A stretch of DNA of 64,000 nt from Streptomyces bacillaris (lineage in GTDB: Bacteria; Actinomycetota; Actinomycetes; Streptomycetales; Streptomycetaceae). The position numbers were made by a program, and so were the translations under genes. Below are positions 5,801 to 11,906 of the stretch, in pieces. The stretch's first letter is position 1; each line of letters starts with the position of its first letter. The DNA lies in the NCBI RefSeq assembly GCF_003268675.1, contig NZ_CP029378.1:4340001-4404000 (forward strand), read 5' to 3'. The notes beneath the pieces were generated by a model. It had not been told where the DNA came from and ran no database searches. It saw only the letters and a program-made list of their open reading frames with translations.

Positions 5801-7303
5801 TCAGTGGCTGGTGAGTTCGCCGGTGAGCTTGGAGTGGAGGTCGGCGCTCGGGTCGTTGAGGCCGATGATCTCCACGGTCTTGCCGCGTTGCTCGTACTTG
5901 GTCTCGATGGCGTCGAGGGCCGCGACGGAGGAGGCGTCCCAGATGTGGGCGGCGGAGAGGTCGACGATGATCCGGTCGGGGTCGTCGTTGTAGTTGAACT
6001 GCCCGACGAGGTCGTTGGAGGAGGCGAAGAACAGCTCGCCGGTCACGGAGTACACGACGCTGCTGCCGTCGGGGTCCGTGACTGCGTGGACGCGGGCGAG
6101 GTGGGCGACGCGCTTGGCGAAGATGATCATGGCGGTGACGGAGCCGACGACGACGCCGATGGCGAGGTTGTCGGTGGCGACCACCACGATCACCGTGATG
6201 CCCATGACGGCGATCTCACCGGCGGGCATGCGCTTCAGTGTCTTCGGGGCGATGGAGTGCCAGTCGAAGGTCGCGAAGGCCACCATGACCATGACGGCGA
6301 CGAGGGCGGCCATGGGGATGTCGGAGACGACCGGGCCGAAGACGATGCACAGCACCATCAGGAACACCCCGGCGAGGAAGGTGGAGAGGCGGGTGCGGGC
6401 GCCTGAGACCTTCACGTTGATCATGGTCTGTCCGATCATGGCGCAGCCGCCCATGCCGCCGAAGAAGCCGGTGACGATGTTGGCGATGCCCTGGCCGATG
6501 GACTCACGGGTCTTGGAGGAGTGGGTGTCGGTGATGTCGTCGACCAGCTTCGCGGTCATCAGCGACTCCATCAGGCCGACCAGGGCCATCGCGAAGGCGT
6601 ACGGGGCGATCGTGGTCAGGGTGTCCATGGTGAAGGGCACGTCCGGCAGGCCCGGCACCGGCAGCGAGGAGGGCAGTTCGCCCTTGTCACCGACGGTCGG
6701 CACCGCGATGCCGGCCGCGACCGTGATGACGGTCAGGATGACGATGGACACCAGCGGGGCCGGGATCACCTTGGTGACCTTCGGGAAGAACACCATGAGC
6801 GCCAGCCCGCCGATGATCAGCGGATACACCGCCCAGGGCACGTCCCGCATCTCGGGGACCTGGGCCATGAAGATCAGGATGGCGAGGGCGTTGACGAAGC
6901 CGACCATCACCGAGCGCGGGACGAACCGCATCAGCTTCGCCACGCCGAGCACGCCCAGGGCAACCTGGATGACACCGGCGAGGATGACGGCGGCGATCAG
7001 GTAGCCCAGGCCGTGCTCGCGGTTGAGCGGGGCGATGACCAGGGCGACGGCGCCGGTGGCGGCGGAGATCAACGCACGGCGCCCGCCGACGATCGAGATG
7101 ACCACGGCCATGGTGAACGAGGCGAACAGGCCGACCGCCGGGTCGACACCGGCGATGATCGAGAAGGAGATCGCCTCGGGAATCAGGGCAAGCGCGACGA
7201 CCAGGCCGGCCAGGATCTCGGTGCGCCAGACCTTGGGGTTGTGCAGCCAGTCGGGCTTGAGGCCGCGCAGCCGTCCGGTGGGAGTCACAGCAGCAGAAGA
7301 CAA
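5801..7303 (-). CDS. SulP family anion transporter with STAS domain
   Basis: A 500-residue inner-membrane protein with about 10-12 hydrophobic segments, for example [20 protein letters not shown] and [20 protein letters not shown]. The sulfate-transporter core covers residues 30-385. A C-terminal STAS domain at about 410-490 ([20 protein letters not shown]) probably regulates it. SulP proteins carry sulfate, bicarbonate or other anions; next to sulfur genes, sulfate or bicarbonate uptake are both possible. The start is odd: the open frame begins at a TTG (7303) without a ribosome binding site, only 17 bases from the start of the divergent MerR gene; GTG at 7288 is an alternative. See the finding on this junction. 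Confidence 0.88.
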
Positions 7304-7320
7304 GGAGATGCGTACCTGTC

Positions 7321-7854
7321 GTGCTCGGGCACACCGGCAGACCGGCCGGAGGCGTGCGGGCGGAGGCGCGGGAGACCGGCCTGGTCATCCCCTCCGCCCG
7401 CTCCCAGGGCGGATTCCGCCTCTACACCGAGACCGACGTCGCCCGGCTCATGGTCCTCCGCCGCATGAAGCCGCTCGGCTTCACTCTGGACCAGATGCGC
7501 GATCTGCTGGAGGCCGCCGACTGCCTCGACGGCGACGACGCTCTCGAAGACGGCGAGCGCGAGGCGCTGCTGGAGCGCGTGCGGACCTGCCAGCAGGCCG
7601 CCGCCGAGCAGGTGGAGAAGCTGCGCATCCAGCTGGAACGTGCCGAGGACTTCGCCGTCACGCTGGGCGCCCGCCTGGAGCAGAACGCTCCTGCCGCCCG
7701 CTTCCAGGACCGCACCGCGCGCCACCCCTGGCAGGCATCGCCTTCCCTGCGGGCCGCCCCGGCCCGGGTGCGGCCCGGTCCAGCTGGTCAGTGCTCCGTC
7801 TGCGGGTGGTTCCCGGTGTCGGTGCTCATGCGCCGGTTCCCTTCAGGGAGGTGA
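7321..7854 (+). pseudogene. MerR family regulator with damaged DNA-binding N-terminus
   Basis: Residues 22-110 are clearly MerR-like: [40 protein letters not shown], and a long dimerisation helix ([20 protein letters not shown]). The expected first helix-turn-helix is missing or scrambled. The frame opens only at GTG 7321 with [20 protein letters not shown], which lacks the usual IGE(L/V)A beginning and the Tyr of the V-R-x-Y-E motif. The C-terminus runs about 60 residues past where such proteins usually end and overlaps the convergent DUF302 gene. It is likely a remnant of the regulator of the divergent SulP gene. Confidence 0.6.
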
Positions 7855-8224
7855 GAGCGGCGTCCAGGCGGAGCGTGGCTTCCCGGGCCACGGGCGCCAT
7901 CGCATCGAGTCCGGTCAGCGTGACCATGGTGCCGGGATCGACGGCCTGCACGACCACTTGGTCGCCCTCGGCGCGCACGACGACATTGCACGGCAGCAAC
8001 AGGCCGATCGAGCGGTCGGCTTCCAGGGCCTGGTGTGCGAGGGGCGGGTTGCAGGCGCCGAGGATCAGGTAGGGCTCCATGTCATGCCCGAGCTTCGCCT
8101 TCAGCGTGGCCTGCACGTCGATCTCCGTCAGGACCCCGAAGCCCTGCTCGGCCAGTGCGTCACGGACCTCGCGCTGAACCTGCTCGAACGATCCCTTCAC
8201 GCTCACGGTGCGGTCGTAGCCCAT
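7826..8224 (-). CDS. DUF302 domain protein
   Basis: A 132-residue protein from an ATG at 8224 with a strong GAGGAGG site. DUF302 features: [40 protein letters not shown] with its Cys, and [20 protein letters not shown] with a second Cys. The family binds small ligands or heme-like groups in few studied cases and recurs beside sulfur-oxidation and rhodanese genes. It is divergent from the MBL-rhodanese gene, and the shared intergenic region has two copies of the TACCCC/GGGGTA operator, so both are probably controlled by the CstR-like repressor. Molecular function unknown. Confidence 0.85.
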
Positions 8225-8308
8225 TGCCTGCCTCCTCGTTCGCGGGAGCGGTCGGCCGGCGACACGGCCGGTCCGCAGTACGGATGACTGCTGCCACCCA
8301 AGTCGAAA

Positions 8309-8323
8309 TATACCCCGGGGGTA
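8309..8323. promoter_or_regulatory. CsoR/CstR-type operator, copy A
   Basis: TATACCCCGGGGGTA, a near-palindrome with C/G tracts as bound by CsoR-family repressors. It lies in the divergent region between the DUF302 and MBL-rhodanese genes, about 22 bases from copy B. Confidence 0.7.
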
Positions 8324-8343
8324 AGAGTGCTACGGTGGATTGC

Positions 8344-10915: not shown

Positions 10916-10959
10916 GCCGAGCGGTGAGCACCATCACCGCCGCGCTCCGGTCGGCCTCA

Positions 10960-11247
10960 TCAGGCCAGGGACAGGAACAGCTTCTCCAGTCGGGCGCGCA
11001 TCTCATCCCGGTCCTCGCCGGAGCGACTGCCGTCCTCCATCTCGGTGAGGCACTGCTGGAGCCCGGTGGCGATGATCGCGAAACCCGCCCGGTCCAGAGC
11101 CCGGGACGCAGCCGCCAGCTGCGTCACGACCTCCTCGCAGTCCCGCCCCTCCTCGATCATCCGGATCACCCCGGAGATCTGCCCTTGCGCACGGCGCAAC
11201 CGGTTCAGAACCGCTTTCAGCTCCGCGCCCGCCAGATCAAGCTCCAT
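10960..11247 (-). CDS. CsoR/CstR family repressor, likely persulfide-sensing
   Basis: A 95-residue DUF156 protein. ATG at 11247 is chosen because a GAGGA site lies six bases upstream; GTG at 11253 would add two residues. Family core: [40 protein letters not shown], then [12 protein letters not shown]. Two Cys (37 and 66 from this start) match the first and third ligands of CsoR, but the copper-binding His four residues before the second Cys is Gly. Cys pairs without His are typical of CstR, which forms di- or trisulfide bridges with persulfides. It is convergent with TauE and divergent from the rhodanese-DUF2892 gene, with an operator between. Confidence 0.88.
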
Positions 11248-11263
11248 CACCACTCCTCATCAC

Positions 11264-11278
11264 ATACCCCCAGGGGTA
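11264..11278. promoter_or_regulatory. CsoR/CstR-type operator, copy C
   Basis: ATACCCCCAGGGGTA, between the repressor start (11247) and the rhodanese-DUF2892 start (11331). The site could give autoregulation and repression of the divergent gene. It is the best palindrome of the three copies. Confidence 0.75.
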
Positions 11279-11330
11279 AATATACTCCCCCGTGCGGGAG
11301 CCCCGCCGACAGCAAAGGATGACACTCGCC

Positions 11331-11906
11331 ATGACCACGCCCACCGCCCTCGGTACCGGTGAAGCCCGCACCCGCCTGCACGAACTGACCGTCATCGACG
11401 TCCGCACCCCCGGCGAATACGCCGCAGGTCACCTGCCCGGGGCCCTGAACATCCCCCTGGACCACATCCAGCGCGCCCTGCCCGACATCCGCGACGCGGC
11501 ACACCGCAAGGACGTACTGGTCGTCTGCGCATCCGGTGCCCGCTCCGAGAACGCCTGCAAGATCCTCGCCGAGAACGGCATCACCACCACGACCCTCTCC
11601 GGCGGCACCGGAGCCTGGGCTGCCGGCGGCCACGAACTCCACCGTCCGCAGGGCTCGGCCCGCACCGTGTGGGGCATGGAGCGCCAGGTCCGCCTCACGG
11701 CCGGCGCCCTCGTCCTGCTCGGCCTTCTGCTCGGCGTTCTCATCCACCCGGCCTTCCAGATCCTGTCGGCCGGCATTGCTGGCGGGCTGGTCTTCTCCGC
11801 ACTCACCAACACCTGCGGCATGGCTACGATCCTCACCAAGCTCCCGCACAACCGCCCCCGTGCCCACGACCTCGACCGCACGCTGGCGGAACTGCGCAGC
11901 CGCTGA
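11331..11906 (+). CDS. rhodanese fused to DUF2892 membrane domain
   Basis: A 191-residue protein from the ATG at 11331 with AAAGGA about 11 bases upstream; further in-frame starts at 11292 and 11319 fit less well. Rhodanese domain at 1-100: VIDVRTPGEYAAGHLPGALN, active loop VVCASGARSENAC. C-terminal DUF2892 domain at 115-170 with two membrane helices (LTAGALVLLGLLLGVLIHPA and ILSAGIAGGLVFSAL), as in E. coli YgaP. It probably moves sulfane sulfur at the inner face of the membrane. The operator in its upstream region places it in the CstR-like regulon. Confidence 0.9.
   Translation: MTTPTALGTGEARTRLHELTVIDVRTPGEYAAGHLPGALNIPLDHIQRALPDIRDAAHRKDVLVVCASGARSENACKILAENGITTTTLSGGTGAWAAGGHELHRPQGSARTVWGMERQVRLTAGALVLLGLLLGVLIHPAFQILSAGIAGGLVFSALTNTCGMATILTKLPHNRPRAHDLDRTLAELRSR

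Follow-up and report, generated by a model that had tools for sequence, protein, structure and literature searches.

The stretch of DNA analysed here (64,000 nucleotides, hereafter the window) lies at positions 4340001-4404000 of the Streptomyces bacillaris genome, a single complete contig of 7.9 Mb, and carries a compact gene cluster built around a persulfide dioxygenase and a repressor of the CsoR family. The dioxygenase gene (8384-9748, + strand) encodes a 454-amino-acid protein of the ScPDO/CstB type, in which a metallo-β-lactamase (MBL) domain is joined to two rhodanese domains, and is followed on the same strand by genes for a single-domain rhodanese (9810-10175; PF00581) and a TauE/SafE sulfite exporter (10172-10915; PF01925, E 3e-49). 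Divergent to the dioxygenase gene lies that of a 132-amino-acid DUF302 protein with two cysteines, Cys58 and Cys79 (7826-8224, - strand; PF03625, E 4.7e-27, 94.1 bits), and at the other end the repressor gene (10960-11247, - strand, in an open reading frame that extends to 11253; PF02583) is divergent to a gene for a rhodanese with a YgaP-like transmembrane domain (11292-11906, + strand; PF00581 and PF11127), the domain that the first-pass annotation of this DNA had called DUF2892. A Pfam scan, which took in ten proteins from 5304 to 12260, agrees with the gene content given in that annotation, namely SulP, DUF302, MBL-rhodanese, rhodanese, TauE, CsoR family and rhodanese-DUF2892. Almost the whole length of the MBL protein can be aligned with the Protein Data Bank (PDB) entries 3TP9 and 3R2U, the latter of which we take to be Staphylococcus aureus CstB; its last rhodanese domain has a CAGGMR loop, and by eye no cysteine of such a loop is present in the middle, degenerate rhodanese domain.

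The repressor scores 85 bits against PF02583, for which the Pfam cut-off is 22.8. Its favoured start is the ATG at 11247, preceded by GAGGAG, and numbering from this codon gives Cys37 and Cys66, the same numbers that the two cysteines carry in ScCsoR of Streptomyces coelicolor. Four residues before the second cysteine, the position of the copper-ligand histidine is occupied by Gly62. In the repressor rows of the fetched loci, Cys37 and Cys66 are each found in 80 of 80 and Gly62 in 78 of 80, the exceptions being L110, with glutamine, and L001, with histidine, which is the other CsoR of the window's own genome (L numbers are our locus labels). The best PDB matches of the repressor are 7MQ1-7MQ3, titled CsoR and presumably a streptococcal CstR.

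Three putative operators lie in the two divergent promoter regions of the cluster. Operator 1 (TACCCCGGGGGTA, 13 bp, 8311-8323) and operator 2 (TACCCCGGGGGGTA, 14 bp, 8345-8358) stand upstream of the MBL gene, and operator 3 (TACCCCCAGGGGTA, 14 bp, 11265-11278) stands between the repressor and rhodanese-YgaP genes. The first-pass annotation had described three near-palindromic TACCCC/GGGGTA sites confined to these regions. The cores are present in both promoters and their strict form is rare, with five matches to ATACCCN{3,4}GGGTA in 7.9 Mb, three of them the cluster sites, and none to the reversed pattern; the loose form TACCCCN3GGGGTA, in contrast, is at chance level when up to 3 mismatches are allowed (27 matches in the window, 27.45 expected). 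The 14-bp form TACCCN4GGGTA occurs at five places in the genome, two within the cluster and the others at 4956390, 5244675 and 6398712, the last inside what looks like an exonuclease-like coding frame, and because the reversed control likewise gives five, single matches of this kind carry little weight. At 5244675 (L007 1501-1515), the site ATACCCCCAAGGGTA, a 15-mer shared without change by at least 21 genomes of the genus, lies near a frame that by eye resembles a universal stress protein, with no Rfam match.

Conservation of the operators was followed in relatives obtained by scanning genome contigs with the MBL protein; the scan gave 386, and the best 80 (78-97% identity; all Streptomyces, Actinacidiphila or former Kitasatospora) were kept for all 80-locus counts. 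With a script that accepted sites of 12-15 bp and favoured 14 bp at overlapping matches, at least two operators were found upstream of the CstB/MBL gene in 81 of 81 loci (the window and its 80 relatives), the last two before the gene being 31-42 bp apart. These last two sites are 14 bp long in 161 of 162 cases, and a separate check of the 80 CstB upstream regions gave no 15-bp match. Likewise, an operator lies within 150 bp upstream in 63 of the 65 CstR matches of the 80 loci, all of them taken as 14 bp. The remaining site of the 162 is operator 1 of the window, and it is conceivable, if doubtful, that its 13 bp reflect an error of sequencing or assembly within a C/G run and no real deletion. 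The 14-bp length of the 160 corresponding sites of the relatives and of site 2 in the window speaks for such a slip, whereas the genome is one complete contig and 13-bp sites occur elsewhere: in L017, from the same genus, at the same position on the DUF302 side of the operator pair (1271-1283), and in L090, where the third operator is 13 bp.

This arrangement closely matches a characterised system. In S. coelicolor, the ScCsoR circuit (sco0618-sco0621) comprises csoR, pdo, tauE and rhod, and operator binding by ScCsoR, its release by polysulfide and the persulfidation of Cys37 were demonstrated by gel shifts, mass spectrometry and mutants, together with dioxygenase activity and the regulation of pdo, csoR and rhod (PMC7533328). 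Both Cys37 and Cys66 are needed, pdo starts with GTG, and the operator, ATACCn6GGTAT, is described at two sites in the pdo promoter and at one between csoR and rhod (PMC7533328). The same genes, residues and sites are present in the window, save that site 1 is one base short: pdo, tauE, the divergent csoR and rhod follow in the same order, the operators are placed alike, the Cys37/Cys66 pair and the GTG start of pdo recur, and site 2 reads ATACCn6GGTAA, fitting ATACCn6GGTA(T), while the spacer of site 1 is n5. Unlike in S. coelicolor, where tauE (sco0619) is described as adjacent to pdo, the single-domain rhodanese gene here stands between the two, and the divergent DUF302 gene has no mention in the main text of the S. 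coelicolor report (PMC7533328). According to the same source, pdo homologues occur in 1248 of 1977 Streptomyces genomes, 773 of them with a CsoR-like gene nearby.

Judging from the genes, residues and sites, the cluster is very probably the Streptomyces version of this published ScCsoR (CstR-type) circuit for the detoxification of sulfane sulfur. The reduced repressor would occupy the operators over the dioxygenase promoter and the single one that separates its gene from that of rhodanese-YgaP, and persulfide or polysulfide, the effector taken over from S. coelicolor, would modify Cys37 with the help of Cys66 and thereby release the repressor. The dioxygenase would then oxidise persulfide to sulfite, which TauE would export, while the rhodaneses would move sulfane sulfur. 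The divergent DUF302 gene would most likely belong to the regulon and supply a small protein with two cysteines for the handling of sulfane sulfur. The core gene set is ordinary and already studied, and the cluster itself adds little to it.

A repressor of this family could instead sense Cu(I), in which case the cluster would serve copper defence. Pfam labels the family metal-sensitive, the operators resemble CsoR sites, and the best NCBIfam match is RicR, yet at 43.9 of 175 bits, far under the cut-off. The copper-ligand histidine is, as noted, replaced by glycine, and no copper gene is found among the ten scanned proteins. Additionally, the genome holds two PF02583 genes, and the other, at 3630208, has the motif EEHLRHC, with a histidine four residues before the cysteine. 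The 15-bp form TACCCN5GGGTA occurs at seven places in the genome (two for the reversed control), none of them in the cluster; of the three that were examined, one precedes the copper-type csoR, another a copA-like frame and the third a copZ-copA-like pair, the copA- and copZ-like frames being recognised by motif. This length agrees with the rule TACX9GTA described for the operators of the copper sensor CsoR of Streptomyces lividans (PMC3902906). That repressor belongs to the same protein family and has palindromic TAC/GTA operators like those of the window, and it differs in the 15-bp length of its sites, against 14 bp here for cluster sites 2 and 3, as well as in its copper-ligand histidine, which is missing here, and in its targets (PMC3902906). 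On the grounds of residues, operator length and the separate CsoR, the copper reading was rejected as highly improbable. The CstR-type assignment made in the first-pass annotation is, by contrast, well supported by the cysteine pair, the absent copper histidine, the best PDB match, the gene content and the operators. It would follow that, in this genome, the sites of the persulfide and copper repressors apparently have lengths one base pair apart (14 versus 15 bp, the copper side being represented by three sites in one genome), a difference of which no statement was found in the passages of related literature consulted.

The promoter of the dioxygenase gene offers two candidate -10 elements. 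Between operators 1 and 2 lies TACGGT (8331-8336, + strand), which may act as such an element and fits a conserved pattern: TANNNT is found between the operator pair in 81 of 81 loci and TGn0-1TANNNT in 80 of 81, the window included. The pdo transcript of S. coelicolor starts 12 bases before the GTG (PMC7533328), and when this start is transferred to the window, at about 8372, the -10 position falls on TAATTT, at the right-hand end of site 2. At the other promoter, a sigma-70-like match (11259-11286, + strand) overlaps operator 3, one such match being found where 0.3 were expected.

Comparison with more distant systems shows which parts of the cluster recur elsewhere. The SUL module of the Arthrobacter plasmids pA8H1, pA40H2 and pA58H2, described alongside an SLP module, likewise includes CsoR, a sulfur dioxygenase, two rhodaneses, TauE and DUF302, and, unlike the window, also holds an MFS transporter and a small protein (PMC6305408). 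The cst operon of S. aureus shares with the window a CstR-type repressor, a three-domain CstB and TauE (PMC7533328, PMC9918477). Against that operon, the ten scanned proteins include no SQR and no CstA-like fusion of rhodanese, TusA and DsrE, the gene order differs and DUF302 is added. A different order and an added DUF302 gene had also been claimed in the first-pass annotation; this is borne out against the staphylococcal operon, whereas within Streptomyces this order is the usual one, already described in print, and DUF302 is a frequent extra. Another member of the CsoR family with two cysteines, TTHA1953 of Thermus thermophilus, controls sulfur-oxidation genes as well; unlike the repressor of the window, it governs a sox system distant from its own gene and binds another sequence, and it was not released by NaHS in its authors' test (PMC10318464).

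The DUF302 gene is the part of the cluster that merits follow-up. A structural model of the protein (predicted local distance difference test, pLDDT, 87.4) superimposes on 1J3M with a Z score of 19.7 and a root-mean-square deviation (rmsd) of 1.4 over 124 aligned residues, pointing to a TT1751-like fold; 1Q9U is a second solved relative with DUF302. A further match, 7TJ1, titled fluoride transporter CrcB, has Z 15.0, 129 aligned residues and rmsd 2.6, and the remaining matches of the fold search are middling (Z at most 9.3, the top ones KA1-like), so that no function follows from them. Of the 74 aligned DUF302 rows, 72 have Cys58 and 71 have Cys79; a cysteine is missing only from L053, L050 and L030, which look broken or partial. 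Passages of the DUF302 literature (open-licence PubMed Central) tie the family both to sox clusters and to an sqr operon, in keeping with a sulfur-related role, and report neither CstR or persulfide control of DUF302 nor an experimentally shown function.

Neighbourhoods of DUF302 genes point in a similar direction. Among the 80 relatives, 29 have a DUF302 match in the fetched stretch, 24 of them divergent to the MBL gene (one present in fragments only and one in two pieces) and five elsewhere (one partial). DUF302 is present in 13 of the 61 genomes sampled from the genus, counting the window's, and with the window's own locus set aside, CstB or CstR stands at most about 1.5 kb away in 10 of 13 loci. 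Across the phylum, DUF302 occurs in 44 of 149 genomes; the neighbourhoods considered were those of the 30 best-scoring loci, which are not a random sample and are in some cases cut by contig ends, and among the 29 that remain without the window's own, 16 have a relative of CstB, CstR, rhodanese or TauE within about 1.5 kb. The control family PF04248, present in 60 of 149 genomes, has such neighbours in none of 30 loci. The arrangements vary: a CsoR-family gene is followed by DUF302 on the same strand in L013, L015, L046, L110, L113, L114 and L121, and on plasmid pRHL3 of Rhodococcus jostii DUF302 stands in one row with CsoR, DUF2892, TauE and an MBL protein. Rhodococcus and Nocardia plasmids (L167, L168 and L169) carry a CsoR-family gene that is followed on the same strand by DUF302, with DUF2892 in between in two of the three, and an MMPL transporter. 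Two relatives, L036 (1674-5768) and L070 (283-4024), carry another, divergent persulfide cluster next to the usual one; it encodes a CstR of its own and a CstB that is 34-35% identical.

It is plausible that the DUF302 gene is under the same operators as the dioxygenase gene, and we infer both its control by CstR and its function. On this basis, we tentatively propose that DUF302 is a widespread member of the CstR regulon, a protein with two cysteines that serves as an acceptor, carrier or reductant of sulfane sulfur beside the dioxygenase, and that the 14- versus 15-bp operators keep the persulfide and copper repressors apart in one cell; we consider this proposal possible and short of probable.

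Several observations weigh against this proposal or, more broadly, against the reading of the cluster as a ScCsoR-type circuit. No DUF302 match is found in the fetched stretch of 51 of the 80 relatives, yet both operators are kept there, which argues that the operators are not special to DUF302 and that the gene is dispensable. Three of the 13 genus loci, those with the weakest DUF302 matches, and 13 of the 29 best phylum loci lack sulfur genes of the kinds counted above over about 1.5 kb, and on a Streptomyces mirabilis plasmid DUF302 adjoins a metal P-type ATPase, with no sulfur genes. Copies that are apparently broken or frameshifted occur at the usual divergent position (L030 3562-3736 and L053 2377-2722). 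An operator or promoter specific to DUF302 was not found in the window, and the A/T-rich left flank of site 1 occurs also in loci without DUF302. Site 1 itself, one base short, may bind the repressor poorly. Extra operators were considered as a sign of DUF302 control and dropped: a third operator lies upstream of CstB in seven of 80 loci, of which just two have DUF302 and five have no match to it, so that such operators do not track the gene; in L012 an extra one lies on the DUF302 side. Finally, ScCsoR is reported to form Cys37-SSH and not the polysulfide bridge between cysteines that is known from S. aureus CstR (PMC7533328), and judging from this the CstR mechanism is only partly shared with S. 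aureus.

DUF302 could instead be a passenger that shares the intergenic region and is expressed constitutively or under another regulator, its neighbourhood resulting from the horizontal transfer of modules. The missing dedicated promoter, the identity of the operators with or without DUF302, the third operators that do not follow it and the sharp edge of a module that two relatives show at 7730 (see below) are all consistent with this explanation. DUF302 nevertheless accompanies CstR or persulfide genes in several arrangements across the phylum, and we regard a passenger role as rather unlikely.

The SulP gene (5801-7303, - strand; SulP and STAS domains by Pfam), which the first-pass annotation had counted as part of the island, does not belong to the set and forms a separate module with a VOC gene and a truncated MerR gene. 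The window from 5271 to 7412 is 88% identical to Streptomyces leeuwenhoekii pSLE2 over the VOC (5304) and SulP genes, and 7371-7679 matches the MerR gene of pSLE2 at 79%. About 26 N-terminal residues of the pSLE2 homologue are missing from the MerR-family frame beside SulP (7321-7854), and the window contains nothing equivalent to bases 2514-2889 of L164 (pSLE2), where MerR begins and most of the intergenic region lies; with these parts missing, the SulP module looks damaged. A second module with MerR and SulP is also found on two of the three Arthrobacter plasmids (PMC6305408), although the MerR of the window, unlike theirs, is truncated. DNA similarity to Streptomyces durocortorensis (96.7%) and Streptomyces zingiberis (93.3%) begins in both at 7730, leaving SulP and most of MerR on the left, which suggests a module boundary at this position. 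Because the similarity starts to the right of SulP and the module matches pSLE2, SulP is best seen as a neighbour. Moreover, it is rare in relatives: among the loci of the window's genome and the 80 relatives, SulP was found just in L008, from the window's genome, and in L045, about 2.3 kb from CstB.

Directly to the right of the cluster lies a tRNA-Pro gene (cgg; 12315-12389), its 3' end facing the cluster and the only Rfam match at gathering score in window positions 1-16000 (L003 and L007 gave none). A genomic island inserted at this tRNA was considered and is not supported, since no second copy of an exact 22-base stretch from the 3' end of the tRNA is present in the genome; integrases were not searched for.

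In Streptomyces, persulfide homeostasis has effects on the production of antibiotics and on sporulation (PMC7533328). With operators of 14 and 15 bp, it can be tested in a simple way how related repressors keep off the sites of one another. The recurrent presence of DUF302 beside persulfide genes provides a concrete, if modest, lead on a family of unknown function; if the proposal holds true, a role in handling sulfane sulfur would be the first function for the uncharacterised DUF302 family.

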